Virus record (IMG/VR): IMGVR_UViG_3300046454_000555
Coordinates: 1-56,045 of that record
From: a virus
Reading direction: 5' to 3' (one strand)
DNA length: 56,045 nt
Positions 8,369 through 56,045 of the stretch are shown piece by piece. Each line of letters starts with the position of its first letter. Within the stretch, counting starts at the first letter, position 1. The position numbers were made by a program, and so were the translations under genes. Below the pieces are notes generated by a model. The model was not told the origin of the DNA, did not search any database, and saw only the letters and a list, made by a program, of their open reading frames with translations.

Positions 8369-8595
8369 GCGAGCGCTTCGTCTGCTTTCGGGTCGAGGCG
8401 TGCCGGCCGATGGGCGGCCCGGTCGCCGACGAGTTCGAGGTCCAGCGGGCCGCTCTCGACTGCGCGCAACTACTTGAGGCGAAGGGCTACGGCGGGGTGA
8501 CTTGCACGGCCGTCCATGAGTTCGACACGCCGGCCGGCACGGGAACAACGCGGCAACGCATCTGGCCGCTGGTCGAGCCCTGGGAGGATGCATGA
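8365..8595 (+). CDS. Small early protein, unknown
   Basis: A 76-residue mixed α/β protein (RFVCFRVEACRPMGG ... YGGVTCTAVHEF). Coupled on both sides by ATGA overlaps between the helicase and NinG. No motif to assign function. Confidence 0.55.
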   Translation: MSERFVCFRVEACRPMGGPVADEFEVQRAALDCAQLLEAKGYGGVTCTAVHEFDTPAGTGTTRQRIWPLVEPWEDA

Positions 8596-31028: not shown

Positions 31029-33322
31029 TGGCGACGCTTCCCGACGCCACCGCCCTCGGCGAGCAGTCGCTCCCGGTCCCGCAGTCGAGCGGGGTCGTGG
31101 CCCAGTACCAGCCGCCGAACTGGCGCCAGACGGGGATGGCCGGGCAGTACGTCTCCGAGGGCGGCCGGGACATCGACCGCGCCGCCCAGGAGATGATGAG
31201 CGCCAACGCGCAGCAGGATTCGATCGTCGCCCAGAGCGCAGCGAACGCGCTCGAGCAGGCGCGGATCAAGCAGCAGTTCGACCCCAAGACCGGGTGGGCG
31301 AACGCCAAGGAAGGGCGCGCCGTCGGCCAGCAGTTCATCGACGAGAACACCGCCAACTTCACCGACACCCAGCAGCAGATCCGCGACTCGCTGACCAACG
31401 ACTTCCAGAAGAAGGTCTTCGACCAGCACGCGCAGCAGCAGATGGCGCGCTTCCAGTCGGCCATCTACTCGCACCAGGCGCAAGAGACCGAGAAGTTCAA
31501 CGACGCCACCGCCAACGGCAACGTCACCTCGGCGCTCCAGACCGCATCGCTCGACCCGGCCTCGGGCACGAGCATCGACAGGTCCGGAAACCTCGTCGAC
31601 CGAAACGTCCCGGCGATGATGTCGGCCGCCCAGATCGAGGGAACGATCGACGACATGGGCAAGCGAAAGGGCTGGCCCGCCGTCGTCACCGACAACGCCA
31701 AGCGGACGGCCCTGAGCGCCCTCTACTCGGCTCGCATCCAGGCGCTCAACGACGGCGTCCCGGGTGCGGTTCAAGCAAGCCCCTACCTGGCCGAGAAGCT
31801 CTTCGAGTCCACGCAGGGGCAGATGGACGAGAAGACGAGGCTCTTCCTGGGCAACCAGGTGCTGAAGTCCGTGAAGGGTGTTCAAGCACGCGACACCGCG
31901 CAGGCGATCGTCTCCGGACATCCGCCGACCGCGCCGCTCGACCTCACTCCTGCAGTCACCGGCAAGCCGCTCCAGGCAGTGGTCGAGACCCTGGAGAGCG
32001 GCGGCCGCGACTTCGGACCCGACGGCAAGATCCTCACCTCCGACAAGGGCGCGCAGGGATCGATGCAGGTCATGCCTGCCACTGCGTCGAACCCGGGCTA
32101 CGGCGTTCGCCCCGCGGCCGACGACAGCCCCGGCGAGCTCGCGCGCGTCGGCCGCGACTACCTCGGCGCCATGAGCGCGCGCTTTGAGGAGCCCGCGCTC
32201 GTCCTGGCCGCCTACAACGCCGGCCCTGGACGAGTGGACGGCTGGATCAAGCAGTTCGGCGATCCGAGGTCAGGTGCCATCAGCCCTGCCGACTGGGCCG
32301 CCAAGATCCCGCTTGCGGAGACCAAGAACTACGTCACCGCGGGGCTCGCCAAGCTCGGCACCCAGCCGCAGACGGCCTCGACCCTCAAGGTCGACCTCTA
32401 CTCGCGCGCCGAGCAGGCGCGTGCTATCGCCGAGCAACAGTACCCGGGCGATACCGCCTACGCCGACTCGGTGGTCTCGCGCGTCCTCAACTACGGGAAC
32501 ATGGTCATCGCCGACCAGCGGGCCAAGGAGCAGGGCGCTCACGAGGCGCTCGTCAACGGGATGATCGGCACCAAGCCCGACGGCAGCGACGCGCCGCAGA
32601 CGATCGACGCGCTCCTCGCCGATCCGCAGCAGAAGGCGAACTGGGACCAGGCCACGCCCGAGGTGAAGAAGGCGATCCAGGACCGCTTCGCGGCGATGGA
32701 CAAGAAGAGCGCCAACGTCCTCACCAAGGACGGGATGAGCACCTACTACGCGCTCCTCGGCAAGGCCGGAACGGACCCCGAGGGCTTCACCAAGGAAGAC
32801 CTCTCGAGCCACTTCGGCGAGATCCCCGACCACCTCCTCCTCGGACTGATGCAGGCGCAGAAGTCGATCAACGCCAAGGACGCTGCGACTCAAGCAAAGG
32901 GCGAGCAGTGGACCAAGGCGCGGTCGGTGGTCGACGACATGCTGAAACCCATTGGCCTGGGCCAAACAGCGAAGCCGAACAGCGCCAACGCCAAGACCAC
33001 CGAGCAGTTCTACGGCCGCCTCCAGGAGGCGATGCAGGACTTCCACGACCAGAACGGCAAGTGGCCGCAGCAGCAGGACCTGAGGAAGATGGCCGGTGGC
33101 CTCCTGATGCAGGGCAAGGAATCGGGCGGCACCCTCTGGGACTCGAGCAAGCGCTCCTTCGAGACCGACCCGGGCAAGTTCTACGTGCCCCTGCCGGCCG
33201 CACGCACCGGTGAGTACAGCGGCGCGGTCGACCGGTTCTCGCGCTCGATGGGCAGAAAGCCCGCGACCGAGAGCGAGCTCCAGCGCTGGTACAGCGTCTA
33301 TCGCCAGGCGGGTGGCCAGTGA
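31028..33322 (+). CDS. Internal virion protein with lytic transglycosylase domain
   Basis: A 764-residue protein. Residues about 315-425 form an SLT-type transglycosylase: TLESGGRDF with catalytic Glu323, KGAQGSMQVMPATA and LAAYNAGPGRVDGWI. The rest is helical and Gln-rich, as in ejected core proteins. It would cut peptidoglycan during DNA entry. It lies between the small core protein and the giant protein, in the T7 gp14-gp15-gp16 order, with the lysozyme domain on a different partner than in T7. Confidence 0.85.
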   Translation: MATLPDATALGEQSLPVPQSSGVVAQYQPPNWRQTGMAGQYVSEGGRDIDRAAQEMMSANAQQDSIVAQSAANALEQARIKQQFDPKTGWANAKEGRAVGQQFIDENTANFTDTQQQIRDSLTNDFQKKVFDQHAQQQMARFQSAIYSHQAQETEKFNDATANGNVTSALQTASLDPASGTSIDRSGNLVDRNVPAMMSAAQIEGTIDDMGKRKGWPAVVTDNAKRTALSALYSARIQALNDGVPGAVQASPYLAEKLFESTQGQMDEKTRLFLGNQVLKSVKGVQARDTAQAIVSGHPPTAPLDLTPAVTGKPLQAVVETLESGGRDFGPDGKILTSDKGAQGSMQVMPATASNPGYGVRPAADDSPGELARVGRDYLGAMSARFEEPALVLAAYNAGPGRVDGWIKQFGDPRSGAISPADWAAKIPLAETKNYVTAGLAKLGTQPQTASTLKVDLYSRAEQARAIAEQQYPGDTAYADSVVSRVLNYGNMVIADQRAKEQGAHEALVNGMIGTKPDGSDAPQTIDALLADPQQKANWDQATPEVKKAIQDRFAAMDKKSANVLTKDGMSTYYALLGKAGTDPEGFTKEDLSSHFGEIPDHLLLGLMQAQKSINAKDAATQAKGEQWTKARSVVDDMLKPIGLGQTAKPNSANAKTTEQFYGRLQEAMQDFHDQNGKWPQQQDLRKMAGGLLMQGKESGGTLWDSSKRSFETDPGKFYVPLPAARTGEYSGAVDRFSRSMGRKPATESELQRWYSVYRQAGGQ

Positions 33323-36300
33323 ACGACGCCCTCGCCCCCGACGACTACGCCGCGCAGCAGGCCAACCTGGCCGTGCAGAAGGCGATGGCGCCGCAGCCGA
33401 ACGACCCCAACGAACTGGCAGCGCAGACGGCCGCGGGCGTCCTGCAGGCGCCAAGGATGCAGGCCCAGGCGGTGAGCGTCGCCAATGCCCATTCGGGGAT
33501 CACGGCACAGACCGCGGGGCAGTCGGCGCAGACGGCGCGCCAGTTGGGCGTGCCGCAGGCCGCGGTCGAGACCGACCCGGCCACCTACGCGAGCCAGGCG
33601 CTGGCGCAGAAGAACGCCGCGGTCGTCGGAGCCAACCCGGTGCTCGCGAAGTGGGTGGCGGCCAATCCGGATTCAGCCCGCATTGCCCAGGACGAGTACG
33701 ACAAGCTCGGCGCGATCGAGAAGATGTGGGACCAGGGCAAGGACGCCGGCTACGCGCTCGTGCAGCAGCTCGGCCATTCCTTTGCATCCGCTTCGCTCGG
33801 GCTGAACCGGGCGCTCGCGCCGATCGCCAACGCGGTCGGTGGCGGGCAGTGGTGGGCGAAGAACTTCCTGCAGACGCAGGAGGACCTCGAGACCTCGCTG
33901 CGCCAGGCACCCGATGCGCCGATCCTGCAGAAGGCCACCGGCACGGCTGGCAGCCTCCTGGGGCTCTTGTCGCAGGTCGCCCTGACGGGTGGGGGCGGCG
34001 CGGCTCCGGAAGCCGCTGCAGGCGTCGCAGACACGCTCGCCAACGCCGCGACCCACGCCGGCAAGTCGATGGCCTTCCCGTCGCTGACCGCATCGGCGAA
34101 CGCCGCCCACGACACCTATGAGCAGACCGGAGACGCCTCGGCAGCGGCGCGGGCTGCCATCGGCTCGTACGCATTTTCGACGCTACAGGGCGCCGTCCCC
34201 TTCTCGGCCCCGGGGACTCTGGCTTCGCGCGCTCTATCCGGTGCCGCTGCAGGACTTGCCACGAGCGAAGGCCAGCGCGCGGCGATGAACCTGCTCGTGC
34301 CGTCCACGGCACGACCGTTCGATCCGCAGGAGGCGATCTTCCAGGCGCTCACGGGTGCAGTCCTCGGCGGGGCGATGGGGCCGCGTCCGGACCTGAACCT
34401 GCACGAGGCGGTCCGGAAGACCTACGACGACGCGGTCAAGGCGGGGCTGGCGGAGCGCGACATCGGCCGCGTCGTCGCCCTCAGCAAGATCGCCCAGGAA
34501 TCTGCCCTGCGCGAGCACGACCCCGACGCCTTCCACGAGTTCGTCCGCACCGTCACCGACAAGAGCGACCTCGACGCGGTCTACGTCGACGGCGTGAAGC
34601 TCTCCGAAGCGTTCGCGCAGTCGGCGATCAAGCCGACACCCGAACTGGCTCAGGAGATGAGCGAGGCGCTGAAGACCGGTGGGGATGTCCGCATCCCGAT
34701 CGCCGACTACGCGACCCACATCGCAGGGACCGACCTCGAGAAGGCGATCCTCCCCGACATGAAGGCATCCCCCGACGGGATGACCATGAAGGAGGGCCAG
34801 CAGTTCTTCCAGAAGGCCGCTGCCGACATGAAGGCCAAGGCGGCCGAGATGATGCAGTCGGCGCAGGAGCGGGCGGATCTTGAGACCGACAAGCAGGGCG
34901 TCTTCCAGAGCATCCACGAGCAGATGGTGGCTGCAGGAAGAGACCCCGGCATCGCCAGGACCGAAGCCCAGCTCGCGACCGAGTTCTATTCCTCGATGGC
35001 CGCCCGCGAGGGGATGAAGCCGAGCGAGTTCCTGAAGCAGAACCCGATCAACTTCGAGGGCGACACCGCGCGCGAGCAGGCCCGGCTCGGGCAGGTCTTC
35101 GCGCAGCGCGAGAGCGACGTCGGTCACAAGCGCATCGGCGAGGCCGGGCGCTACGTCGGCGCCCCCGACTTCGTGGGCTCGAGCCCGCAGAAGCTCACCG
35201 TCCTGCGCAAGAACCTGCAAAAGCTCACCACCGAGGGGGCGGTCGGCCGCTACTGGTACGAGCGCTCGGCGCGCGCGGTGCTCAATTTCGTGGGCGGCGA
35301 CAAGGGCGACGCGGAGAAGTTCATCGGCCTGCTCGCCGTCTATTCGCAGGGCACCTCGGTCCCCGCGAACACGACCTCCGCAGTCAAGGCCTGGTATCAG
35401 TGGAAGAACGGCGAGCCGATCACCGCCGGGCGCTTCCCGGCGGCGATGGGCAAGAAGGCCGAGGCGTGGCTCAACCGCGGCGAGGACTGGGGCGGGATCA
35501 AGACCAACAACTTCTACACCGACCTGATGGAGGAGATCGACCCGAGCAAGCTCGACTCTCACCACTCCACCATGGACATGTGGATGGCGCTGGCCGGCGA
35601 CTACGGCGCGAAGGTCCTCGACCAGGGTCCGAAGTACACCTTCATGCAGCGCGAGATCGCGCGCATCGCCGACCAGATCGGCTGGCGGCCGCACCAGGTC
35701 CAGGCCGCGATCTGGACCGCGATCAAGGCCCGCGTCGAGGGCAGCGAGAAGGCCCGCAACGCCTTCGAGGACGCGCAGGGCATCCGCATCGCCAGCGCCG
35801 AGGGCGGCCACGAGATCGCCAAGGGCCGCGAGTACGAGCACTACCGCGCCGCCACCCGCTTCGGCCTCGAGTCGCCGATCACGCAGGACGAGATCAACAG
35901 CAGCAACTACGACTTCGGCCACGCGCTCGCCGAGCGCACGGCGCAGATCTCGTGGGAGGCGACCCCTGGCGCGACCACAGGCGTCCTGCCGGGCATCCAC
36001 AACGCGCCCATGCATCAGGTGCTGGAGTACCTCGGCGCCATCCGCCAGGCGCTCTCGGACGAGAAGGGCCGCGACCTCATCGACCAGCGCCTCGGGCTGC
36101 TGACGACCAAGGGCGAGGCGCTCTACTCGGGCTGGCAGGGCAAGACCACCGCCGGGGTGCAGCAGGGCGCCGGCGTGACCGTCACCGACGGTGCCGTGGC
36201 TGGGCAGTCGCGGGTGCGCGTCAACCTCGCCGCCGACATCCGCGGCCTGGTGCTCTCGCAGGAAGCGGTCGCCTGGCACTTCCCGATCTTCGGCGGCGCC

Positions 36301-39300
36301 AAGTTCGGCCAGAACGGCGTCGAGTTCAATCTCGGCCGGACCCTCGCCGAGGGCGAGACCCGGGGCCTCTACGAGGCGCTCACCCGAGAACTCGGCCACT
36401 CGGAGTCGCCTCCCATCCCCACGAAGGAGGGGTTTCGCGTCCTCAACTTCCCGGACGAGAAATTCGCCCTCCAGAGCGAGACCGACAAGGGTAAAATCAA
36501 GGAGCTGCAGAAGGGCGCCCGCGAGAAGAACGAGGCGTTTCATGCGGCTGTAGAGCGGGCAGTTGCCGCTCAGGACTTCGGCCATGAAATCACCGACCGG
36601 ACCCACTTCGAAAGCGACGGCGAACTCCGCCCAAACGACTGGAGCAAAGGCGACTCGGATTACCGAGGAAGAATTGCAGAGGCGGATAGCAGCGTTGCCC
36701 AAAGCAAGAGTGGCGGGTCCGAACGATCCGATCTACTCGGGTGGGTTGACGATGAACTCCGTCCCCGCGTCCAAGCCGTCAACGACGACTTCGCCGCCCG
36801 CTACGGCTGGGACCAGCCAGGACCTGCAGGACTAGACCAGTCCTTCCACCAGGGCGAGCGCGGCGCGTTCGACCCTGCGACCCGCACCGTCTCCATCCTC
36901 AAGGGGGCCGACCTCAGCACGGTCGTGCATGAGCTCGGCCACGGCTTCCTCGACACCCTGAGTCGCGTCGCTGTCGGCGAGAAGGCGTCCGAAGGCGCCA
37001 AGGCCGACTTCAAGACCATCCTCGACTGGTTCGGCGTCAAGGACGAGGCGACCTGGCATGCGATGTCGCTCGACGAGCAGCGCCAGTACCACGAGAAGTT
37101 CGCCCAGTCCTTCGAGCGCTATCTCTTCGAGGGCAAGGCTCCCACCCAGGCGCTGCAGCCGCTCTTCAGCCGCGTGCGCTCGTGGATGCTCTCGGTCTAC
37201 TCCAAGCTCTCCAACCTCGGCGTCGGCCACATCGATCCCGAGGTGAAGGCCGTCTTCGACCGGATGCTGGCCTCCGACGAGGCGATCAAGCAGGCCGAGG
37301 CGATCCGCTCCTACGCGCCCCTCTTCACCGACGCGAAGGCGTTCGGAGGAGACGAGGCAAGGCTCAGTGCCTACCTGAAGATGGGTCAAGAGGCCACGGG
37401 CGAGGCCGTCGACTCCATGCAGGCCCGATCACTTCGGGACATGAAGTGGCTCTCGAACGCCAAGAACAAGGCGATCCGGGCGATGCAGAAGGAGGCCCTC
37501 GCCGCGCGCAAGGAAGTGCAGGCCGAGGTCACCGCCGAAGTCAACCAACGTCCGGAGTACGCCGCCAAGGACTACCTGCGCGCGAACAAGGGATCGGACA
37601 AGGAGATCGTCGCCGGCATGCACGGCTACGGCTCGGCCGAGGAGATGCAGCAGGCGATCGACTCTGCCCCGAACCGGAAGGACGTCGTCCGCGAGCAGAC
37701 CGACCAGAAGATGCTGCAGCGCCACGGCGAGTTGACCGACCCCGGTGCCGTTGAACTGGCCGCCAACGAGGCCGTCCACAACGAGGCCCGCGCCCGCTTC
37801 ATGGCCACGGGCCTGAAGATCCTCACCGACTCGCCGCTGCCCGCGAACCAGATCGCCAAGGCGGCAAAGGAAGCAGCAGAGGCGACCGTTGCCAAGAAGG
37901 CAGTCGGCGACCTGAGATCCGACCGCTATCTCGCTGCCGAGGCCAAGGCCAACAAGGAGGCGATCAAGCAGGCCCCCAAGAGCCCCGAGAAGGCGGTCGA
38001 TGCGCAGAGAGCTGCCATCCTCAACAACCGCCTCGCCAAGGCGGCGATGGACGCCCAGGCAGAAGTCCAGAAGGGCCTCGACTACCTCAAGAAGTTCGAC
38101 AAGCCGACGATCGCCAAGGCGGTCGGGTCCGAGTACATGGACCGGATCAACGAGCTTCTCTCCGGGTTCGACATCACGAACCGCTTCAGCACCGGCTCCG
38201 ACGTCGCCCAGCGCCAGCAGATGCGCGACTGGCTGCAGAGCGAGTACCAGCGGACCGGGGTGATGCCCGAGGTCTCCGATGCCCTCATGGACTTCACCAA
38301 CCAGAGGCACTGGAAGGAGTTGTCGGTCGAGGAGTTCCGCGGCCTGGTCGACGCGGTGAAGAGCCTCGAGCACGTTGGAAGAGAACAGCAGCTCGTGACC
38401 GTCAACGGACAGCGCGTGGCTCTTCAGGACCAGGTCGATCGCGCCAAGGCCGACATGGCAGACATGCCGCACAGCGTCCCGGTCGACATCCAGCCGCACC
38501 TCCTCCACGCCGAGGGGCTGAGCAGGCTCAGTGCCCAGTGGCTGAACCTGAAGTCCAAGCTCAGGGGCATGGACGCGGCGCTCCTGAAGATGGAGCAGCT
38601 CTTCCAGTGGCTCACCTACGGCCGAAAGGCCGGTCTCGGCGAGACGCGCACCGGACCGTTCCTCGAGATGATGACCCGCGCCGGCAGTGCGGAGGGCCGC
38701 GAGCGCGCGATGCGCGCCGAGTCCGCCAAGGCGATGAAGGACCTCGGCGAGTCGCTCCGGGACGCCAAGGTCAACATCAACGAGTCGCTCGACCTGCCGG
38801 GACTTTCACGGCAGGGCCGGGGGACGCAGTGGTATCGCGAGGAACTCCTCTCGGCTGCCCTCAACATGGGCAACAAGGAGGGCCTGAAGAACCTCGTCGA
38901 GGGCAACGGCCTGAACGAGCGGGCGCTGCGTCAAGCGCTGAAGGACCACCTCTCGCCGGCAGAGTGGAAGTTCGTCCAGGGGACCCTGGACCACATCAAC
39001 TCCTACTGGCCGCAGATCGAGGCGCTGCAGAAGCGGATGGTCGGCGTCGCCCCGCCGAAGGTCGAGGCACTGCCGATCGGCGACATCGAGGGCGGCTACT
39101 TCCCGATCGTCCGCGACGCCTTCACCGACCGCAACATCGACGAGCACCACGCCAAGGATGCGGCCTCCCTCTTCGAGAACCAGTTCTCCAAGCCGGTGAC
39201 CAACAAGGGCCACACGGTCGCCAGAACCGGCTACGTCGGGCCGCTGCACCTGAGCCTGGGCAACATCGCCCGCCACATCGACCAGGTGACGCACGACCTC

Positions 39301-40587
39301 GCCTGGCGGGAAGCGATCGTTGACATGAACAAGTTCCTGTCGCACCCCGAGATCCAGAGCGAGGTCGACCAGGTGATGGGCCGCGAGTACCGGAAGCAAT
39401 TCCGCCCGTGGCTGCAGTCGATGGCCAACGACAAGGTCTTCAACACCTCGGGCGACACCGCCTGGGAGCGCTTCTACCGGACTGCGCGAACCAATGCGAC
39501 GCTCGTCGGGCTGGGCTTTCGCCTTTCGACGATGCTGATCCACGGCAGCTCGGCCCTGTCCACGTCGATCGGCGAGGTCGGGACGAAGTGGTTCGCCAAG
39601 GGAGCAGCCGAATTCGCCACCCCCGAGCGCTGGGCCTCGGCCAAGCAGTTCATGTTCGACCGCTCCCCGGAGATGGCGAACCGCTTCAACGAGAGCGACC
39701 GCAACATCCACGAGGCGATCGACCAGATCAACGAGCACCAACGCTCCCTCGGTCCGATCTCGGGGACGCAGAAGGTCTTCGACGGCGCGCGCAAGTTCGC
39801 GTTCTACGGCGTTCAAGCCCTGGACATGGGCTCGGCCGCGCCGACCTGGATGGCCTCCTACCTGAAGGGCATGGCGCCCGAGTCGAAGGGCGGCCATGGC
39901 CTGAGCGAAGAAGCAGCGGTCGAGCTCGCCAACCGCGCCGTCAGAAACGCGCACGGTGGTGGCGGAGTGAAGGACCTATCGGCAGTGCAGCGCGACAAGG
40001 GCGTGATGAGCATGGCGACCATGTTCTATTCGTTCTGGAACCACATGTACAACCGGCAGCGGGACCTCGGCAAGGGCTACGCCAACCTGCCGGATTCGTT
40101 TCGCCAGGGCACGGGGGTGAAGGACTTCTCCAAGCTCCTCGCCCGCTCCTGGTGGTACTTCGTCGTCCCGCAGGTCCTGCATGCCGCGCTCAAGCCCAGC
40201 CCGCAGGACCAGGAGGATTCGCTCGAGGCGAACCTGAAGCACTTCGCCGAGGAGATCGGCCTCGGCTTCGTCTCCGGCGTCCCGGTGCTGCGCGACCTCG
40301 CCAATGCGGCAGTCAACGGCCGCGACTACACGATCACGCCGCTCGAGCAGGCCGGCAAGGCGATCGTCAAGGCGGGGACCGATCTCTACAAGGTCTCGAC
40401 CGGCGAGGAGCCGTCGAAGCACGCGGGCAAGAACGCCGCCCAGGCAGTCGGCTACGCCGCGGGACTCCCTACAGGACAGCTCTCCCAGACGGGGACTTTC
40501 CTGTGGGATGTCTACAGCGGGGACGCCGACCCGCAGGGCATCAAGGACTGGTACGAGGGCATCCAGAACGGAAGGCTCTCGCAATGA
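33319..40587 (+). CDS. Giant 2422-residue internal virion/polyvalent protein with zinc-peptidase motif
   Basis: The largest gene here. GTG start overlapping the upstream TGA. Domains in order: Ala/Gln-rich helical N-terminus (1-150); a head-core-like region; a conserved block near residues 600-830 (SPQKLTVLRKNLQKLTTEGAVGRYWYERSARAVLNFVGGD in the sequence); a zincin-type motif VVHELGHGFLDTL with H1204-E-L-G-H1208 and a downstream Glu-rich helix; long charged coiled-coil segments; and a C-terminal region with amphipathic helices (RLSTMLIHGSSALS, SWWYFVVPQVLHAALK). This matches large polyvalent ejected proteins. It should enter the host with the DNA, where the peptidase could act on a host target. 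Confidence 0.8.
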   Translation: MNDALAPDDYAAQQANLAVQKAMAPQPNDPNELAAQTAAGVLQAPRMQAQAVSVANAHSGITAQTAGQSAQTARQLGVPQAAVETDPATYASQALAQKNAAVVGANPVLAKWVAANPDSARIAQDEYDKLGAIEKMWDQGKDAGYALVQQLGHSFASASLGLNRALAPIANAVGGGQWWAKNFLQTQEDLETSLRQAPDAPILQKATGTAGSLLGLLSQVALTGGGGAAPEAAAGVADTLANAATHAGKSMAFPSLTASANAAHDTYEQTGDASAAARAAIGSYAFSTLQGAVPFSAPGTLASRALSGAAAGLATSEGQRAAMNLLVPSTARPFDPQEAIFQALTGAVLGGAMGPRPDLNLHEAVRKTYDDAVKAGLAERDIGRVVALSKIAQESALREHDPDAFHEFVRTVTDKSDLDAVYVDGVKLSEAFAQSAIKPTPELAQEMSEALKTGGDVRIPIADYATHIAGTDLEKAILPDMKASPDGMTMKEGQQFFQKAAADMKAKAAEMMQSAQERADLETDKQGVFQSIHEQMVAAGRDPGIARTEAQLATEFYSSMAAREGMKPSEFLKQNPINFEGDTAREQARLGQVFAQRESDVGHKRIGEAGRYVGAPDFVGSSPQKLTVLRKNLQKLTTEGAVGRYWYERSARAVLNFVGGDKGDAEKFIGLLAVYSQGTSVPANTTSAVKAWYQWKNGEPITAGRFPAAMGKKAEAWLNRGEDWGGIKTNNFYTDLMEEIDPSKLDSHHSTMDMWMALAGDYGAKVLDQGPKYTFMQREIARIADQIGWRPHQVQAAIWTAIKARVEGSEKARNAFEDAQGIRIASAEGGHEIAKGREYEHYRAATRFGLESPITQDEINSSNYDFGHALAERTAQISWEATPGATTGVLPGIHNAPMHQVLEYLGAIRQALSDEKGRDLIDQRLGLLTTKGEALYSGWQGKTTAGVQQGAGVTVTDGAVAGQSRVRVNLAADIRGLVLSQEAVAWHFPIFGGAKFGQNGVEFNLGRTLAEGETRGLYEALTRELGHSESPPIPTKEGFRVLNFPDEKFALQSETDKGKIKELQKGAREKNEAFHAAVERAVAAQDFGHEITDRTHFESDGELRPNDWSKGDSDYRGRIAEADSSVAQSKSGGSERSDLLGWVDDELRPRVQAVNDDFAARYGWDQPGPAGLDQSFHQGERGAFDPATRTVSILKGADLSTVVHELGHGFLDTLSRVAVGEKASEGAKADFKTILDWFGVKDEATWHAMSLDEQRQYHEKFAQSFERYLFEGKAPTQALQPLFSRVRSWMLSVYSKLSNLGVGHIDPEVKAVFDRMLASDEAIKQAEAIRSYAPLFTDAKAFGGDEARLSAYLKMGQEATGEAVDSMQARSLRDMKWLSNAKNKAIRAMQKEALAARKEVQAEVTAEVNQRPEYAAKDYLRANKGSDKEIVAGMHGYGSAEEMQQAIDSAPNRKDVVREQTDQKMLQRHGELTDPGAVELAANEAVHNEARARFMATGLKILTDSPLPANQIAKAAKEAAEATVAKKAVGDLRSDRYLAAEAKANKEAIKQAPKSPEKAVDAQRAAILNNRLAKAAMDAQAEVQKGLDYLKKFDKPTIAKAVGSEYMDRINELLSGFDITNRFSTGSDVAQRQQMRDWLQSEYQRTGVMPEVSDALMDFTNQRHWKELSVEEFRGLVDAVKSLEHVGREQQLVTVNGQRVALQDQVDRAKADMADMPHSVPVDIQPHLLHAEGLSRLSAQWLNLKSKLRGMDAALLKMEQLFQWLTYGRKAGLGETRTGPFLEMMTRAGSAEGRERAMRAESAKAMKDLGESLRDAKVNINESLDLPGLSRQGRGTQWYREELLSAALNMGNKEGLKNLVEGNGLNERALRQALKDHLSPAEWKFVQGTLDHINSYWPQIEALQKRMVGVAPPKVEALPIGDIEGGYFPIVRDAFTDRNIDEHHAKDAASLFENQFSKPVTNKGHTVARTGYVGPLHLSLGNIARHIDQVTHDLAWREAIVDMNKFLSHPEIQSEVDQVMGREYRKQFRPWLQSMANDKVFNTSGDTAWERFYRTARTNATLVGLGFRLSTMLIHGSSALSTSIGEVGTKWFAKGAAEFATPERWASAKQFMFDRSPEMANRFNESDRNIHEAIDQINEHQRSLGPISGTQKVFDGARKFAFYGVQALDMGSAAPTWMASYLKGMAPESKGGHGLSEEAAVELANRAVRNAHGGGGVKDLSAVQRDKGVMSMATMFYSFWNHMYNRQRDLGKGYANLPDSFRQGTGVKDFSKLLARSWWYFVVPQVLHAALKPSPQDQEDSLEANLKHFAEEIGLGFVSGVPVLRDLANAAVNGRDYTITPLEQAGKAIVKAGTDLYKVSTGEEPSKHAGKNAAQAVGYAAGLPTGQLSQTGTFLWDVYSGDADPQGIKDWYEGIQNGRLSQ

Positions 40588-40670: not shown

Positions 40671-42695
40671 ATGGGCAGCGCAACGACCGACCGTCGAATG
40701 GGGTTGACCGGCGACAAGGGCATGAAGGCCCCCGCCGACTGCGCCACGACATCGAACATCACCCTCTACGGCGAGCAGGTGATCGACGGCATCACGACCA
40801 ACCAGAGCCGGGTCCTGGTGATGGCCCAGACGGTCGCCGCCGAGAACGGGGTCTACGACTCGAGCTCGGCGCAGTGGACGCGGGCGATCGACGCCAACGG
40901 CTACTCGGACCTGACGCAAGGCACGCAGATCCGGGTCAATCGCGGCAGCCAGGCCGGGTCGAACTTCGCGGTCACGACCGCCAATCCGATCCAGATCGGC
41001 ACCAGCGCGCTCACGTTCGGTCCCGGCCAGCCGCTCACCATCCCGACGATCGACGAGTTCGTCGGCGACGGGGTGACCACCGTCTTCGCGTTGAGCGGGA
41101 ACCCCGGTGCGCAGTCGAACCTCGACGTCTGGATCGGCGGCGTGCTGCAGAGCAATGGAGACGACTTCACCTGGTCGAGCGCGAGCCCCATGAGCGTGAC
41201 ATTCACGACGGCGCCGCCCACGGCGCCGATCCGGGTCAAGTACGTGCGCGCGGTGCCGATCGGCACGGGCGACGCCAGCGTCACCGCATACCTGACCCAG
41301 GGCGGCACTCCCCGGACGGTCCAGGACAAGCTGCGCGATGAGGTCAGCGTCAAGGACTTCGGCGCCGTCGGCGACGGGATCGTTGACGACACATCAGCCG
41401 TCGTCAACGCCGTCAACTCGGTCAATGCCGCAGGGGGCGGTGATGTCTATTTCCCCCCGGGCAACTACCTCGTCTCGCCGAGGACCCTGTCGAATCTCAG
41501 CTTCGTGACGCTGCGCGGCGCGAACAAGTACGCCAGCACGCTCACCCTCGCCTCGGCCGGCTCGCTGCTCAACTTCGACGGCGGCGGATGGGTGCGACTG
41601 GAGAAGCTCGGGTTCTATCCCAGCGGCGCGGCACAGACGCTTGCGAACGCCAACGGGGTCACGTTCTTCGGCAACTCGGGAAACTGCACGATCGACGACT
41701 GCCTCTTTCAGGGGTTCTCGAAGAACGGCCTTTCCATCATCGGGGACGTCGGGCTGCAACTCAGCGGATTCAAGGTCACGAACTGCTACTTCCTCGGCAA
41801 CGGGCAGTACCAGTTCTACAGCACCTACTGCAACGACTTCATGCACACGAACAACCAGTTCGGGTCGCTCGTCGGCATTGCGCCCGCCACCCGGGGCTCG
41901 TACCACGTCAGCTCCAGCGCCGGCACCTATTCCTCCAACCTGCATTGGTCGAACGTGGTCGCGGCGGAGTTTGACTCCTGCAGCTTCAACCGCTATGTCG
42001 GCAACCGTTTCGAGATGTCGGACCGGCAGAACGTCTACTTCAACGGCGGCGGCGACACGGTCTTCGTGGGCAATATGTGCCACACGGCCTCCCAGTCGTC
42101 GGCTGGAACGTATGACAACGTCTACGCGACCGGCTTGATCACGGCCATCTTCGGCAACAACAGCCTCTTCACCTACGGCGGACAGTCGGCTTGGGGGATG
42201 AACTTCGACATCGGATGCGGAGACATCACTCTCGGCAAGAACAAGATCAGGGTGGATTCCGTGTCGTCATCAACTGGGCCGGTGCGTTTGGCCAGTTCCG
42301 CCTACGACCAGTTGTCCGCCGATGCGGTGCAGTCGTTCGCGACCACTTCGGTCGCGGCGGCCGCGACCGTATTCATTGGAGCCAACGGAAATCAGGCAAC
42401 AGAGAACGCGACGTGCGCCATGGTCGGCCGCCAGGCCACGGCGGTCTTGCTCTACGCCGCAGCCGCCAACGCGCCCGGCGCGGGCGAGACGTACACCTAC
42501 ACGCTGCGCATCAACAACGCGGACACGGCGATGACGTTCTCGATCAGCGGCGCATCTTCATTCTTTGGAACGGCGGTTCCTGCCGGCCCCTCGATCCTCC
42601 TGGGGCCGAATGACATCTATGCCGTGAAGCTGGTGACCAGCGCGGGAGCGACGACCACCAATCACCGCGTCCGTGTCGCCTTTGTTGAGAACTAA
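40671..42695 (+). CDS. Tail spike with pectate-lyase-like β-helix
   Basis: A 674-residue protein. The N-terminal part (about 1-215) is a virion-binding domain; then VSVKDFGAVGDGIVDDTSAVVNAVNSVNAAGGGDVYFPPGNYLV, the opening of the Pectate_lyase_3 β-helix used by spikes that bind or cut surface polysaccharide. Regular short β turns follow to about residue 560, then a C-terminal β domain. GAGGAAAA lies upstream of the ATG. Confidence 0.86.
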   Translation: MGSATTDRRMGLTGDKGMKAPADCATTSNITLYGEQVIDGITTNQSRVLVMAQTVAAENGVYDSSSAQWTRAIDANGYSDLTQGTQIRVNRGSQAGSNFAVTTANPIQIGTSALTFGPGQPLTIPTIDEFVGDGVTTVFALSGNPGAQSNLDVWIGGVLQSNGDDFTWSSASPMSVTFTTAPPTAPIRVKYVRAVPIGTGDASVTAYLTQGGTPRTVQDKLRDEVSVKDFGAVGDGIVDDTSAVVNAVNSVNAAGGGDVYFPPGNYLVSPRTLSNLSFVTLRGANKYASTLTLASAGSLLNFDGGGWVRLEKLGFYPSGAAQTLANANGVTFFGNSGNCTIDDCLFQGFSKNGLSIIGDVGLQLSGFKVTNCYFLGNGQYQFYSTYCNDFMHTNNQFGSLVGIAPATRGSYHVSSSAGTYSSNLHWSNVVAAEFDSCSFNRYVGNRFEMSDRQNVYFNGGGDTVFVGNMCHTASQSSAGTYDNVYATGLITAIFGNNSLFTYGGQSAWGMNFDIGCGDITLGKNKIRVDSVSSSTGPVRLASSAYDQLSADAVQSFATTSVAAAATVFIGANGNQATENATCAMVGRQATAVLLYAAAANAPGAGETYTYTLRINNADTAMTFSISGASSFFGTAVPAGPSILLGPNDIYAVKLVTSAGATTTNHRVRVAFVEN

Positions 42696-49247: not shown

Positions 49248-49931
49248 ATGTTCGGGCTCCTTCCCACGTTCCTCGGCGCCGGTGGTGGTGGTACGCCTCC
49301 GGTGACCGAGCCGCGGCGGCGGCGCACGCTCGATCTGTCGCGCTCGGGCATGCACATCCAGACGGTCGGGCCGGTGACCTACACCCCGGCCGCGATCAGC
49401 CTGGTGAGATTCGGCACGCTCTCGAGCGCCAACGTCGTCCAGTCCGGGACGGGGCCATACACCTACACGCTGGCCGTCGCAGGGGGCCCGTACAGCCTCA
49501 CGAACAGCAACCTCAAGTTCCCGGCCAGCGTGGCCGCGAGCATGACGGTGCAGCGCGTTGCCCTGCCATCGGCCGGCGCAACCGACGACTACTTCTCGCT
49601 CGGGTTCGACGTCGACAACACGACGATCAGGAGCGCGCCGACCACGCCGACGCAGGGCGGCGTGGGCACGCAGGGCTCGTTCTGGTACTACCCGTTCAAG
49701 TCCGGCTCGTTCGGCTCCGCGGGCGACGTCACCGGCGTGGGCTCGTTCTGCCGCATCCGTCGTGATGCATCGAACGTCCTCTATTTCGAGTCCTCGCCCG
49801 ACAACGTCACCTGGACGACGATGGACACCAACCCGGGAGCCAACGTCGACTACTGGCCGAAGATGCAGATGAACACCGCCGCCTCGACCGGCGCCGCGTG
49901 GCTGCTCCATTCGCAGACGGGGATGGTCTGA
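49248..49931 (+). CDS. Tail-associated β-sandwich protein with basic N-terminal tag
   Basis: A 227-residue protein. N-terminus FGLLPTFLGAGGGGTPPVTEPRRRRTLDL is a Gly/Arg tag, then a lectin-like β domain (SLGFDVDNTTIRSAPTTPTQGGVGTQGSFWYYPF ... YFESSPDNVTWTTMD) resembling concanavalin-like modules of phage tails. TGATG junction with the next gene. Confidence 0.65.
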   Translation: MFGLLPTFLGAGGGGTPPVTEPRRRRTLDLSRSGMHIQTVGPVTYTPAAISLVRFGTLSSANVVQSGTGPYTYTLAVAGGPYSLTNSNLKFPASVAASMTVQRVALPSAGATDDYFSLGFDVDNTTIRSAPTTPTQGGVGTQGSFWYYPFKSGSFGSAGDVTGVGSFCRIRRDASNVLYFESSPDNVTWTTMDTNPGANVDYWPKMQMNTAASTGAAWLLHSQTGMV

Positions 49932-52498
49932 TGCTGCTTCGCTCTACGCGCACGAGGTCCAGCTCGCCGGCTCAATCGCCGATGATGCTGGGCATCAACC
50001 TCGGGAGCGTCTTCTACTTCAACGGCGAGCCGATCTTCGTCGACCTGATGAAACAGGGGGCCGGGATCTACAACGCGGACGGCTCCGGGTTGGCGCCCGT
50101 GGATGGAAACGGATTCCCGACCGTTGATTTCGGCATCGGCCTGCAGCGCCTGCCGCCTGATGCGCCGCCCAGCCAGTCGGTGACGGTCAGGGTCGACGGC
50201 AACCCCGGCACGGTGACGATGCCCCAGGCGAACGGTTGGACCCTGGGTGCCACGACGTACGACTCGGGGACCGATACCGGGACGGTCACGCTCACCACGC
50301 CCTCGGTCGAAATCACCGCCCAGGGATGCCACTTGCTGTTCACGGGCACCAAGAGGACGCCAGCCAGTGCAACCAACACCGGGGTGCGCAAGATCCGCGT
50401 CCCGCGCCACGGCTACGAAGGGCGGCCCGACCAGAACATCACCGACGAGTTCATCGCGCAGATGGCTCCCTTCAAGTGCATCCGGTTCGTGAAGGTGATG
50501 GGCGCAGAGACGCGCAACGACTTCACCGCGTGGTCCAACTATCCGCGCAGGAGCGGGGTACACGGCCAGTCCTACGGCGGCGAAGAGTCCGGGATCATGC
50601 CGATCGAGGACATCGTCGACATCGCGAACGTCTGCAACTGCAACGTGTGGGTGAACCACTGCGGAGGCGGGGATCAGTCGCTCGGCACGCTCTCGTTTGC
50701 CTACGGGATCGCGGCGTACCTCGAGGCCAATCTCAACCCGGGCCTGTTCATCGTCCACGAGGACGTGAACGAGACGTGGAACCTGAGCGGCTACCAGTGG
50801 TTCGGTTATGGCAACGACGCGGCCATGCGGGAGCTGCACGGCTTCTGGAGCGACAACTTCGACCGCGCCTCGGTGAACCTGGCGAGCGCGCAGCGCACGA
50901 GCAACGTCGTCACCATGAGCCTCAACTATGCCCACGGCATGGGCGGCGACCAGACCTATTCCTGCCAGTTCCAGGGCCGCGTCGGCACGGGCACCGTCAC
51001 TGCCCACCCGACCGATTCGACCCACTTCACCATCCCGGACACCGGCACGGATTGCAAGATCGCGGTGACCCTCGGGACGCACTACTTCGACTCCCCGTTC
51101 TTCGACGCGAGGATCGGCGGCACGCGGACGAGCGGGGTGGTCACGGCCCACTGCCGGCTCAATCACGGCTTCACCTCCGGCGACAGCGTCTACGTGCCGC
51201 TCAACGGCCTGACCTCGACGACCAAGATCTTCACGATCACCGTCGTCGACGTGAAGACGTTCACCTTCGCCGATGCGGGCGCTGATGGCGGCCTGGCGAT
51301 GACCGGCGACAACAATTCCACGGGCGGCAGCCTGTCGACGGGCTCGGCATTGACGTTCGACGGCGATGCTTCTGGCTCTGCCTACATGAGCGAGAAGTAC
51401 TGGACCCGACACAAGGTCCAGATGAGCGACAACATCCGCCTGGCGGTGGGCGACTCGCTCATGATGAATCGCCACCGGCCGGTCTTCATGACCCAGTGGG
51501 CGAGCGGGACGATCTATCGGTTCTACGACGCCAAGGCCATGATCGAGAGCGGACTCGGCACGACCTACGCCGCCAAGTTCTACGCGATCGGGGGGGCTGG
51601 TTATCCGGACGGCACGACCTCGGACAGTGGCTACCTCAAAGGCGACAACTCGGCTGCGCACGCCGCGGCCGAGTACATCGCCGAGTTCCAGGACTCGACC
51701 ACCATCGGCATGGGCGCCAACGTCTTCACGCCCGACCTGTTCAAGACGTTCGCCTTGAGCGAGGGCTGCCACCAGTACATGTACGAGTGCGGCATCGACA
51801 CCAAGATGTACCAGGCCAATACCGGGTTCTATGCGGCCAACGCTGCCCAGTTGCGGGCCGCAACACTGGACCCCGCGTGGAAGCAGATCGAGAGGAACTT
51901 CCCCGAGCAGCAGGCAAACCTTGGGACCGAGCTCGCGAACATCTTCAACGCCGAGATGATCTCGCAGGCGACGGTCGATGGGCAGGGCTATTGGGCATTG
52001 ACCTGGGGCACGCTGACGCGCTCGCCGAAGCAGCAGGCCTTCATCGACTGGGCCGCGAGCCCGCCCACTGCCACTCGCAACGTGGTCCCGGGCACGGTCG
52101 ACGCGCGCAATCCGATCACCTTCTACGAGACATCGAACGGCGTCGGTGGTGCGAACTTCAACTACGGCGGCTTCTCGTATCCGACGATGGCGACCCCGTG
52201 GTCCGCCTACCCGCAGCCCTTCGCCGATCGCTGGCAATACATCATCAACTCGACGCAGGCCCGGTCGATGTCGATGACCATCACCTACAAGACCCTCGCG
52301 GCGGTCAGCCACACGATCACGCTGCTGCGCAACGGCTCGTCGATCGGCACCTTCAGCGTTCCCAGCGTGGGCGTGGGGAACCTGGGCACGACAACGCCGA
52401 TCACGGTCACGATGGCACTGGGGACCCAGAACGCGATCGCCCTGCAGCGCGACTCCGCGAATTCGGACTTCGAGATCCACTCGATGACGTTCTCGTGA
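49931..52498 (+). CDS. Large tail protein with glycoside-hydrolase-like barrel
   Basis: An 855-residue protein starting MLLRSTRTRSSSP, resembling the start of the 44425 gene. After a β domain comes a TIM-barrel-like part: FIAQMAPFKCIRFVKVMG, VNHCGGGDQSL, NPGLFIVHEDVNETWNLSGYQW; the Asn280-Glu281 pair looks like the acid/base of clan GH-A hydrolases. A second nucleophile Glu is expected later but not certain. A β-sandwich (NYGGFSYPTMATPWSAYP to the end) may bind sugar. It likely cleaves or reads host glycan. Confidence 0.65.
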   Translation: MLLRSTRTRSSSPAQSPMMLGINLGSVFYFNGEPIFVDLMKQGAGIYNADGSGLAPVDGNGFPTVDFGIGLQRLPPDAPPSQSVTVRVDGNPGTVTMPQANGWTLGATTYDSGTDTGTVTLTTPSVEITAQGCHLLFTGTKRTPASATNTGVRKIRVPRHGYEGRPDQNITDEFIAQMAPFKCIRFVKVMGAETRNDFTAWSNYPRRSGVHGQSYGGEESGIMPIEDIVDIANVCNCNVWVNHCGGGDQSLGTLSFAYGIAAYLEANLNPGLFIVHEDVNETWNLSGYQWFGYGNDAAMRELHGFWSDNFDRASVNLASAQRTSNVVTMSLNYAHGMGGDQTYSCQFQGRVGTGTVTAHPTDSTHFTIPDTGTDCKIAVTLGTHYFDSPFFDARIGGTRTSGVVTAHCRLNHGFTSGDSVYVPLNGLTSTTKIFTITVVDVKTFTFADAGADGGLAMTGDNNSTGGSLSTGSALTFDGDASGSAYMSEKYWTRHKVQMSDNIRLAVGDSLMMNRHRPVFMTQWASGTIYRFYDAKAMIESGLGTTYAAKFYAIGGAGYPDGTTSDSGYLKGDNSAAHAAAEYIAEFQDSTTIGMGANVFTPDLFKTFALSEGCHQYMYECGIDTKMYQANTGFYAANAAQLRAATLDPAWKQIERNFPEQQANLGTELANIFNAEMISQATVDGQGYWALTWGTLTRSPKQQAFIDWAASPPTATRNVVPGTVDARNPITFYETSNGVGGANFNYGGFSYPTMATPWSAYPQPFADRWQYIINSTQARSMSMTITYKTLAAVSHTITLLRNGSSIGTFSVPSVGVGNLGTTTPITVTMALGTQNAIALQRDSANSDFEIHSMTFS

Positions 52499-53051
52499 GC
52501 AGCGCCAGCCCCGCGATGAGCAGCAGCCAGGTCCCGGGCTCGGGCACGCTCGTCACGGTGCCGCCTGCGTTCGTCGAGCCGGCGTGGAACGACTGCTCCG
52601 TGAAGCTGACGGACAGGCCGGCGAAGGTGATCTGTCCCTGGCCCTGGAAGAACCCCTGGCCGACGATCGACGTGATGGCGCCGTTCTCGACCGTGACCAC
52701 CGGAGGCGGCCCGAAACCTTGGAAGGGGCTCTGCAATCCGTTCAGGCCGTTGCCGTTCCCGTCCGATGCGAAGTCGAACCCGAACACCGCGAAGTCGACG
52801 GGCGGATCGACTGCTGCGCTTCCCGAGAAGAGCAGCAGGCTGTCGCGGCTGAAGGTGCCATCGCCGCCGGTCGTGGTGATGTCGAAGGCCCCGGTCCAAT
52901 GAAAGCCGACGACCAGGCCATTGCAGGTCGGGCACCGGTTGCCGTCGACGAAGGTGACTCCGTTGCCCTGGGCCTGCAGAACGAAATCCTGCGTCGCCCA
53001 TGCACTGCTCGCGACGCACAGCAGCATCGCCAGGCCGACTCGTTTCAGCAT
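52407..53051 (-). CDS. PEP-CTERM secreted protein (phage cargo, moron)
   Basis: A 214-residue protein on the strand opposite to the late genes. GGGAGG precedes the ATG. Signal peptide LKRVGLAMLLCVASSAWA (cleavage near residue 20), a Gly/Thr-rich β body, then VPEPGTWLLLIAGLALLTRT at 169-188: a full PEP-CTERM sorting signal (motif plus membrane helix) for a host exosortase/archaeosortase-type enzyme. Normal family members end with a few Arg; this one runs 26 residues further into the antisense of the preceding gene. It likely coats the cell or biofilm matrix of lysogens. No phage role is expected. Confidence 0.85.
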   Translation of the reverse strand: MLKRVGLAMLLCVASSAWATQDFVLQAQGNGVTFVDGNRCPTCNGLVVGFHWTGAFDITTTGGDGTFSRDSLLLFSGSAAVDPPVDFAVFGFDFASDGNGNGLNGLQSPFQGFGPPPVVTVENGAITSIVGQGFFQGQGQITFAGLSVSFTEQSFHAGSTNAGGTVTSVPEPGTWLLLIAGLALLTRTSSSGSRSPNSRSRAAGRSRSGSPVPS

Positions 53052-53106
53052 CGTCGTCCTCCCGTAACCGGAGACCGCAGCGTAGGGCGGCCCGACGGAG
53101 AACGGT

Positions 53107-53122
53107 CCCCCGGGTTCGGGGG
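53107..53122. other. GC hairpin between the moron and the lysis genes
   Basis: CCCCCG, GGTT loop, CGGGGG: a compact 6-bp stem in the 99-bp divergent gap 53052-53150. No T-run on either side. The gap must hold the moron promoter on the minus strand, but no good -35/-10 pair stands out. Confidence 0.4.
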
Positions 53123-53150
53123 CGAGTAAACCCTAGACGGAGCCCGCCCC

Positions 53151-53360
53151 ATGGCCGACATGACCCAAGAGACGCACATCGCCTTACTCGAGCGCGATGT
53201 CGGCAACCTCAGGTCCGAGCTCGACGAGATGCGCGCCGAGATCCTGGCGCTGCAGGGCGAGCGGGACCGGGCGCTCAAGTGGGGGATCGCCACCCTCGGG
53301 GCGATGGTGCTCACCCTCGGCGGGTTCATCGTCAACTTCCTGAAGGACCACCTCAAGTGA
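53151..53360 (+). CDS. Small membrane protein, holin-like or spanin-related
   Basis: A 69-residue protein: coiled-coil-like N-half (HIALLERDVGNLRSELDEMRAEILALQGE) and one C-terminal membrane helix (WGIATLGAMVLTLGGFIVNFL) with a basic end. This coiled-coil plus single span layout is common for lysis-cassette proteins next to endolysins. First gene of the lysis region. Confidence 0.7.
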   Translation: MADMTQETHIALLERDVGNLRSELDEMRAEILALQGERDRALKWGIATLGAMVLTLGGFIVNFLKDHLK

Positions 53361-53362
53361 CC

Positions 53363-53872
53363 ATGAAAGCGTCGCCCGATTGCTTCGCCGTCATCAAGCA
53401 CTTTGAGGAGTGCCGCCTGCGCGCCTACCCCGATCCGGGGACGGGCAGTTCGCCCTGGACGAACGGCTGGGGCGCCACGGGCGAGGGCATCGGCCCGGGC
53501 ACCGAGTGGACGCAACTGCAGGCCGATAACCGGCTGATCTGGGACGTGGGCCTGCGCGAGGCCGACGCCAACAACGCCATCATCGTGCCGGTGACGCAGG
53601 GCATCTTCGACGCCTTCGTCTCGGCGCTCTACAACATCGGCCACGGCTCGCCGATCAAGGATGGCCTGATCCGCCTGCGCTCCGGCTACCCGTCGACATG
53701 CCTGCGCCTGCTCAACGGCGGCCAGCCCGACCTGGCGCGCGACGCGCTCGGCAAATGGGTGAGCCCGGGCACGAAGCTCGAGCACGGCCTGCATCGCCGC
53801 CGCGTGGCCGAGCAGGCGCTTTGGGAAGGCTACAGCGCAGAGGTCGCAATCGCCAGGGGCGACGCAGCATGA
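53363..53872 (+). CDS. Endolysin, GH24 (T4-lysozyme-like)
   Basis: A 169-residue muramidase that cuts peptidoglycan at the end of infection. IKHFEECRLRAYPDPGTG... WTNGWGAT holds the catalytic Glu15, Asp24 and Thr33 with the family's E-8-D spacing and a small insertion before Thr. No signal peptide or SAR helix is seen, so it needs a holin. A GTG at 53357 overlapping the upstream stop is an alternative start. Confidence 0.87.
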   Translation: MKASPDCFAVIKHFEECRLRAYPDPGTGSSPWTNGWGATGEGIGPGTEWTQLQADNRLIWDVGLREADANNAIIVPVTQGIFDAFVSALYNIGHGSPIKDGLIRLRSGYPSTCLRLLNGGQPDLARDALGKWVSPGTKLEHGLHRRRVAEQALWEGYSAEVAIARGDAA

Positions 53873-54093: not shown

Positions 54094-54364
54094 CCGGCGC
54101 TTCATCGCCGCCTTCGCCGTCCTGATCACCGTGGTCGGGATGGCCTTCGTCTTCATGGTCGTCTTCGGCGCGGTGCCGAAGGACAACCAGCAGAACGCTT
54201 CGATGTCGCTGGGCTTCGTCCTCGGGACGCTGCTTGCGGCGCCCATAGGCTTCTTCTACGGGGCGAGCAAGGCCCAGCCTACTGCCACGCCCCCCGCGCC
54301 CGCTGTAGCGCCGCCCGGCCCCGTTCCCGAGCCATCCCCAGACGCCCTGAAAGGCACACCATGA
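54071..54364 (+). CDS. Holin-like protein with two membrane spans
   Basis: A 97-residue protein. Two hydrophobic helices (FIAAFAVLITVVGMAFVFMVVFG and SLGFVLGTLLAAPIGFFYGA) are joined by a polar loop, followed by a Pro/Ala tail. The topology fits a class II holin or another lysis membrane protein. Overlap by coupling with both neighbours. Confidence 0.7.
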   Translation: MPDASIFDRRFIAAFAVLITVVGMAFVFMVVFGAVPKDNQQNASMSLGFVLGTLLAAPIGFFYGASKAQPTATPPAPAVAPPGPVPEPSPDALKGTP

Positions 54365-54651
54365 AGCGGATCCTCTTTCTCCTCGCGATCATCATCGCCG
54401 GCTGCGCGACCCCGCCGCCCGGCAGCCCGCCAGTCTCTCCGGCGCAGCAGGCCCTCGACACCATGGTCACCTCCTGCAAGGGGGTCGACACGTCGATCGT
54501 GCTCGCCGACCAGGCCGTGCTGCAGGGCGTCCTCAAGGGCCAGGACAAGGCCAACGCCATCAAGGGCCTGACGACGGCCCAGGCAGGTTGCGTCGCCACC
54601 CTGGCCGCCCTTCAATCCGCCGCTTCTGCGGCCTCAGGAGCATCGAAATGA
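54361..54651 (+). CDS. Small lipoprotein in lysis cassette
   Basis: A 96-residue protein with a lipobox: KRILFLLAIIIAGCATPP, Cys at residue 15, so an envelope lipoprotein. It could be the outer-membrane partner of a spanin pair or an unrelated exclusion lipoprotein. The mature part is Ala-rich and helical. ATGA junction with the next gene. Confidence 0.72.
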   Translation: MKRILFLLAIIIAGCATPPPGSPPVSPAQQALDTMVTSCKGVDTSIVLADQAVLQGVLKGQDKANAIKGLTTAQAGCVATLAALQSAASAASGASK

Positions 54652-55087: not shown

Positions 55088-55258
55088 TACGGCGGTGATA
55101 CGGAGGCGGGCTCTACGCCCGGCGCGCTTCCCCTTGAACTACGGCGGGGCACCCGGCGGGCGCGCCCCGTGAATCTATTCCGCTTCCTCGGTGGCGCTCA
55201 TCCCATTTCGCTGGCTATCATCGGCTGTATCAATTTCGACGATACCGGCGGTGATACG
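55084..55258. other. Candidate attP region with integrase arm-type repeats
   Basis: A 170-bp stretch between the last cargo gene and the integrase. GTGATACGG occurs at 55084 and 55095, and GGCGGTGATACG at 55091-55102 and again at 55247-55258, the second copy ending on the integrase GTG. Such repeats flanking a core are expected for arm-type integrase sites. The middle contains inverted GC-rich pieces and a D-arm-like stretch on the minus strand that suggests a tRNA remnant. The core sequence cannot be fixed without the host junctions. Confidence 0.5.
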
Positions 55259-56045
55259 TGGCAAGCGTGCTCGAGGTCAATGGCAAGTGGCGCGCGCTCG
55301 TCCGGCGCAAGGGCTTCAAGGCCCAGTGTAAGACGTTCGACACGAAGGCCAAGGCCGTGCGCTGGGCCAAGACGATCGAGGACGGCATCGCCGCGGGCGG
55401 CCCGCAGGCGCTGGGCGACCTGACCGTCGCCCAGGTGATACAGGCGTATCAGACGCTCCGGGACGAATCGCGGCCGATCGACGACACCTCGAACGAGCAC
55501 TACATGCTCAAGGCGCTGCGCCGCGGGCTCGGCGGGCAGCGTGTCGCGTCCTTCGGGCCGGAGCACCTGGTCTCCTACGCCAACATGCGGCGCGAGGAGG
55601 GCGCCGGCCCGTACACCATCAACATGGACGTCTCGAAGCTCGGGACCGTCATGCGCTACGGCGGCGCGGCGCTGAAGGTTGCGCTTCCCGACGTCGTCGG
55701 CGCGGCGCGGCCGCTCCTGACGCACCTGCGGCTGATCGGCGGCGGCGGCAAGCGCGAGCGCCGGCCGACCGAGGACGAGCTGGTCCGGGTGATCGCCTGG
55801 CTGCACGAGAACAAGGGCCTCGTCTATGCAGAGGCGCTCGTCTTCGCGGTGCATACCGCGATGCGCCGTGGCGAAATTTGCGCGGTGCTGCGTACCAAGA
55901 TCGACATGGTGACGCGCGTCGTGCCCATCTGGCGCAAGCACCCGAGGAAGGGCAAGGTGCTCGAGAACGTGCCGCTGCTTGGCGAGGCGTGGGACGTGGC
56001 GATGCGGCAGCCGGCGAGCGCCGATGGTCGGCTCTTCCCGCTGCA
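55258..56045 (+). CDS. int: Tyrosine recombinase/integrase, N-terminal part (partial at window edge)
   Basis: 262 codons open to the window end. GTG start at 55258 (VASVLEVNGKWRALVRRKGFK), an arm-binding N-terminal domain (AKAVRWAKTIEDGIAAGGPQ), the SAM-like core-binding domain (LTVAQVIQAYQTLRDESRP), then the catalytic domain with the first conserved Arg in AVHTAMRRGEICAVL and the Lys-containing β-hairpin (PRKGKVLENVPLL). It breaks off after DGRLFPL; the remaining H-x-x-R, H and Tyr motifs are on the left end of the window. Confidence 0.92.
   Translation, partial: MASVLEVNGKWRALVRRKGFKAQCKTFDTKAKAVRWAKTIEDGIAAGGPQALGDLTVAQVIQAYQTLRDESRPIDDTSNEHYMLKALRRGLGGQRVASFGPEHLVSYANMRREEGAGPYTINMDVSKLGTVMRYGGAALKVALPDVVGAARPLLTHLRLIGGGGKRERRPTEDELVRVIAWLHENKGLVYAEALVFAVHTAMRRGEICAVLRTKIDMVTRVVPIWRKHPRKGKVLENVPLLGEAWDVAMRQPASADGRLFPL

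Follow-up and report, generated by a model that had tools for sequence, protein, structure and literature searches.

The window, meaning the entire stretch of DNA that was analysed, comprises the whole of IMG/VR record IMGVR_UViG_3300046454_000555, which is 56,045 bases long and classed as linear. Genes for terminase, capsid, tail, lysis and integrase functions are present according to PHROG matches, and identify the record as a tailed temperate phage. Between the last tail-region gene and the lysis cassette lies an inverted ORF (52407-53051, minus strand) of 214 amino acids with its ATG at 53051, hereafter the cargo gene, whose product carries the sorting signal of PEP-CTERM proteins, the substrates of exosortases. 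The tail gene, which ends at 52498, overlaps the cargo ORF by 92 bp, and this overlap divides the cargo into a native part and a run-on tail (Table 1). Among the genes on the other side of the cargo, the product of the first is holin-like purely by position and hydrophobicity, and the small lipoprotein-like ORF downstream of the endolysin is a possible spanin.

Table 1. Features of the cargo locus and its surroundings
Feature	Position	Strand	Evidence
Last tail-region gene, 866 aa; the run-on tail is antisense to its 3′ end	49898..52498	+	
PEP-CTERM cargo, native part, codons 1-185	52497..53051	-	ORF, PF07589, GC3
Layout of the native part: signal peptide 1-19, body, VPEP motif 169-172, hydrophobic stretch 173-185			
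Cargo run-on tail, codons 186-214 and stop; TRTSSSGSRSPNSRSRAAGRSRSGSPVPS	52407..52496	-	GC pattern, change point
Shine-Dalgarno GGGAGGA, 5 nt before the cargo ATG	53057..53063	-	sequence
Divergent intergenic region, 99 bp; a cargo promoter would have to sit here	53052..53150		
Small protein with C-terminal hydrophobic helix; opens the lysis cassette	53151..53360	+	
Endolysin (Phage_lysozyme)	53357..53872	+	PF00959 E=8e-23; phrog_7 E=7e-32
Small lipoprotein-like ORF	54361..54651	+	weak phrog_8971 match, E=0.03
Integrase, truncated by the record end	55258..56043	+	phrog_1 E=2.5e-24

The N-terminus of the cargo protein reads, by inspection, as a typical signal peptide (MLKRVGLAMLLCVASSAWA followed by TQ), and residues 168-186 match the PEP-CTERM profile PF07589 with 23.3 bits, the gathering score being 20.7 bits. 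This GC-rich window contains many long spurious ORFs, and the cargo could on that ground be taken for one that arose by chance antisense to phage DNA; such an ORF would not be expected to combine a profile match over the cut-off with a signal peptide and a ribosome site. The codon evidence refutes this reading, which is vanishingly improbable: on the phage's own codon table the cargo frame scores +0.48, against a range of -1.18 to +0.06 for the remaining five frames of 52499-53051. With ORF, profile match and codon score in agreement, the original prediction of a phage-borne PEP-CTERM gene lying antisense to the late genes at the tail/lysis boundary holds.

The body of the cargo contains no frameshift or stop and keeps the full coding signature. 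No recognisable domain was detected in it with Pfam or PHROG, and an AlphaFold2 run on the cargo without an alignment gave a mean pLDDT of 34, so that the fold is not predictable. A CPTC (CxxC) motif occurs at residues 40-43 (window 52923-52934, minus strand). No close homologue or donor was found among viral contigs, genome contigs, isolate phages and plasmids, nor any close homologue in 369 genomes from the class of the nearest capsid-bearing genome. Weak matches are present in 33 of the 399 genomes from the order of that genome, and are mostly confined to the C-terminal third of the protein.

The two parts of the cargo ORF differ sharply in codon structure. Codons 1-185 have GC1/2/3 values of 0.62/0.50/0.88, as in the real genes of the phage, and codons 186-214 have values of 0.48/0.93/0.45, which is the mirror pattern of the tail gene. 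A change-point model with the two states ‘coding’ and ‘antisense of phage genes’ places the switch after codon 186 (52494), a single codon away from where the tail gene stops (52496-52498); the training set contained the tail gene itself, of which the last 30 codons are a tiny part. Because the codon signature switches within one codon of the tail-gene stop, the last 29 residues of the cargo are unselected antisense of the tail gene. Alignments point to the same position, since 30 of 40 full-length alignments to other PEP-CTERM proteins end at cargo residues 183-187. The weak matches in genomes of the order mentioned above also end there, which is weaker evidence as the query stopped at residue 187. 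The end of family homology had been predicted to coincide with the end of the tail gene at 52498, as the alignments bear out, and the antisense of that gene had been predicted to replace the native end over about 26 residues; the replacement stands, and its length is corrected to 29 residues by the GC pattern and the change point.

Related phages show how this region is arranged elsewhere. In G001, whose capsid protein is 82% identical, membrane proteins and the lysozyme come directly after the last tail gene, and none of the genes there is inverted. G019 likewise passes directly from its last tail gene to small membrane proteins, which precede a lysozyme, a spanin-like gene and an integrase, and the window has this same gene order plus the cargo in reverse. 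The absence of an inverted gene at the tail/lysis boundary of both relatives is as expected for an insertion in the window phage. No relative of the cargo was found in any related phage contig examined, and a search for relatives of the 866-aa tail gene returned none; the insertion is thus deduced from gene order rather than from an empty site. As neither the tail gene nor the cargo is shared with any relative, and an empty site cannot be reconstructed, the predicted loss of the cargo's end during insertion is conjectural. The same observations bear on whether the contig is an assembly chimera in which host DNA with a PEP-CTERM gene was wrongly joined to phage DNA. That the junction recurs in no relative, and that the cargo and the neighbouring tail gene both lack homologues, would fit such an artefact, but a misassembly is not expected to place its join so close to a stop, at no more than one codon's distance, the lysis genes and integrase on the other side are ordered as in G019, and GC content is the same throughout. 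A chimera is accordingly very improbable.

PEP-CTERM signals, as defined by Haft and colleagues (PMC1569441), have three elements: a PEP motif, a stretch of 14 hydrophobic residues and a basic region of five residues. The cargo keeps the PEP motif and a 14-residue hydrophobic stretch, GTWLLLIAGLALLT, followed by an Arg. The PF07589 match covers profile positions 1-18 of 24 only, so that the signal lacks its basic last quarter. The original description of the product as a complete exosortase-sorting protein must therefore be withdrawn, as the native end is absent. In its place the run-on tail offers 6 Arg in 29 residues and contains no Asp, Glu or Lys; these are single scattered Arg, where members of the family typically have a contiguous cluster. 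The first basic residue stands at position 18 from the PEP motif, compared with positions 19-22 as a rule in bacterial relatives, and one viral example (L238) also has it at position 18. The distance from PEP to stop is 45 residues in the cargo, 23-32 residues in 13 of 16 bacterial relatives (median 26.5) and a median of 31 in viral examples (130 cases). Distances of 45 residues or more were seen in 4 of the 130 viral and 1 of the 16 bacterial cases, all with unrelated long tails, so that tail length alone proves nothing and it is the codon switch that does; the cargo's own long tail was found in no other context. When the 3′ ends of this phage's genes were read in antisense in the phase of the cargo, 8 of 9 genes gave 6-10 Arg in the first 30 residues and the ninth gave 3, and an Arg-rich tail is thus a tendency of such overprinting.

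Whether this replaced end leaves a working signal separates two views of the cargo. It could be a passenger in decay, a gene that arrived without its end, with a broken sorting signal and a product that, if made, is non-functional and stuck in the membrane. The profile match that ends at position 18 of 24, the missing Arg cluster and an end that exceeds that of most bacterial relatives by 17-22 residues are what such a passenger would show. Decay is nevertheless unlikely, if by some way the most serious of the rival explanations, because the body has suffered no frameshift or stop and retains its coding signature, the tail is basic and free of acidic residues, and some bacterial and viral members of the family likewise have a PEP-to-stop distance of 44-54 residues. 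The truncated signal probably continues to anchor the protein and may still be sorted, with the antisense tail providing positive charge after the hydrophobic stretch, and with a basic run-on tail the three-part sorting signal may still work. Of the earlier claim that the Arg-rich end was lost, what stands is that the native basic end is gone; loss of function does not follow from it, given the composition of the tail and the Arg directly after the hydrophobic stretch.

The cargo is like the exosortase substrates of Gram-negative bacteria (PF07589, TIGR02595; PMC1569441) in its signal peptide and variable body and in its C-terminal PEP motif, 14-residue hydrophobic stretch and positive charge thereafter. 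It differs from them in being phage-borne, in the replacement of the native basic end and stop by tail-gene antisense, and in having scattered Arg rather than an Arg cluster. The original prediction also tied the phage to exosortase-bearing hosts, a link that the nature of the cargo implies but that the genomes sampled do not demonstrate; no exosortase gene is linked to the phage. The nearest capsid relative in bacterial genomes belongs to a Betaproteobacteria MAG (67% identical) in which two models detected no exosortase. Exosortase genes are present in 12 of 60 genomes sampled from the family of that MAG, and in only 2 of the 17 genomes that carry related capsid genes, the other 15 being without one.

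Phage morons, or lysogenic-conversion genes, include lom and bor of phage lambda. The cargo resembles genes of this type in being self-contained, additional to the core phage programme and coding for an envelope or surface product, and the term moron is applied to it here for position and content. It is unlike lom and bor in that its product would depend on sorting by a host exosortase, and in that no promoter or terminator of its own was recognised by consensus scans, which are weak in GC-rich non-enteric DNA; for the promoter, scans for sigma-70-like and sigma-54-like sites found none in 53052-53150. On balance, the cargo is probably a moron of the temperate phage, inserted in reverse where the tail genes give way to the lysis cassette, with a secreted product that carries a PEP-CTERM sorting signal. 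As late transcription runs against the cargo gene, the protein would be made mainly in the lysogen. It would leave the cytoplasm through Sec, stay held by its C-terminal helix and be cleaved by a host exosortase, and the product could then join the cell surface or the exopolysaccharide matrix and alter aggregation or the accessibility of the cell. The best reading of the sequence is that lysogens may display or shed the cargo product via the host exosortase. Overexpression of pepA, a single PEP-CTERM gene, restored floc formation in Aquincola (PMC9850573), which indicates that one gene of this kind can change a cell.

A displayed protein might instead serve superinfection exclusion, in which case it would mask the phage receptor, presumed to be surface polysaccharide, and its role would not lie in aggregation or the matrix. 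The position and orientation of the cargo suit a conversion gene of this sort, and a tail-spike gene with depolymerase-like PHROG matches (40671-42695) implies that the phage may bind surface polysaccharide. The body of the cargo, with no recognisable domain and its low pLDDT, lends nothing to such a function, and exclusion is distinctly unlikely, more so than decay.

Turning from the window to other phages, PEP-CTERM genes are not confined to the cargo described here, and also occur in phages unrelated to this one. One of 34 related phage records carries a PEP-CTERM protein: G016 (IMGVR_UViG_3300045741_000168), whose capsid protein is 78% identical, has a different gene at about 45.07-45.66 kb (L067:1486-2190, minus strand), between Mu-Gam-like and phrog_1048 genes. 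Its product scores 22.7 bits with Pfam and ends in PEPPTLQLIAAGLSLIGLAKRKTKW (RKTKW), and no relative of it was found elsewhere in IMG/VR. Compared with the window cargo, this gene occurs in the same phage group but has an unrelated body, a normal end and a location among early genes, and it is a separate acquisition.

A scan of IMG/VR with the motif VPEPxTWA[M/L], which favours one PEP-CTERM subtype, returned at least 120 stretches, and among the matches listed nearly all have normal PEP-CTERM ends. One of these loci (L158:2381-4249) has two tandem PEP-CTERM genes in a recombination module, with Erf and a RecE/YqaJ-type exonuclease upstream and NinB/Orf downstream. An exonuclease directly adjoins the PEP-CTERM gene in L180, and a YqaJ-like gene lies within a few kb of it in L162 and L241. 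PHROG matches among 99 direct neighbours of IMG/VR PEP-CTERM genes include helicase, RuvC, portal, terminase, exonuclease, baseplate and tail proteins. A large terminase was found in 22 of the 50 PEP-CTERM-bearing records checked, and 16 of these 22 have over 4 kb of sequence between the PEP-CTERM gene and the nearer end of the contig. Some of the records may be host flanks of proviruses; a PHROG scan of the gene neighbours in five other records gave no phage matches, and hence not every PEP-CTERM gene sits among recognisable phage genes. Searches of isolate phages with short PEP-CTERM peptides by BLAST returned no match, although the low-complexity filter may hide such queries, and no description of PEP-CTERM proteins as phage cargo was found in the open-licence literature.

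These observations allow a broader proposal, which is put forward tentatively and at less than even confidence: several phage lineages may recurrently carry exosortase substrates that recode the surface or matrix of exopolysaccharide-producing hosts, and in the present case the signal may have been completed by overprinting. Because the antisense of a GC-rich phage gene is Arg-rich by codon structure, read-through after truncation would, under this proposal, have immediately re-created a positively charged anchor in the cytoplasm. Sludge bacteria require both PEP-CTERM proteins and exopolysaccharide to form flocs, and phages carrying PEP-CTERM genes could therefore change the aggregation of their hosts. 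The cargo probably represents a phage conversion gene with a predicted exosortase-substrate product, of a kind that is easy to find in IMG/VR, and its run-on end is a clean natural test of how much of a basic end a PEP-CTERM signal needs.

Other genes of the window are listed here as separate observations. The ORF at 11678-12286 (plus strand) matches DegT/DnrJ/EryC1 sugar aminotransferases in part, over two short stretches (E=4e-17), and is possibly a second cargo gene related to surface polysaccharide. At 1681-2844 (minus strand) lies a YqaJ-type recombination exonuclease, the true start of which is probably well within the listed ORF. A C-5 cytosine DNA methylase (8516-10279, plus strand; PF00145 E=8e-49) probably serves evasion of host restriction. 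The 2422-aa protein encoded at 33319-40587 (plus strand), which has LPD22 and DUF7178 matches and is about 30% identical to proteins of related phages, is probably a large ejected virion protein.
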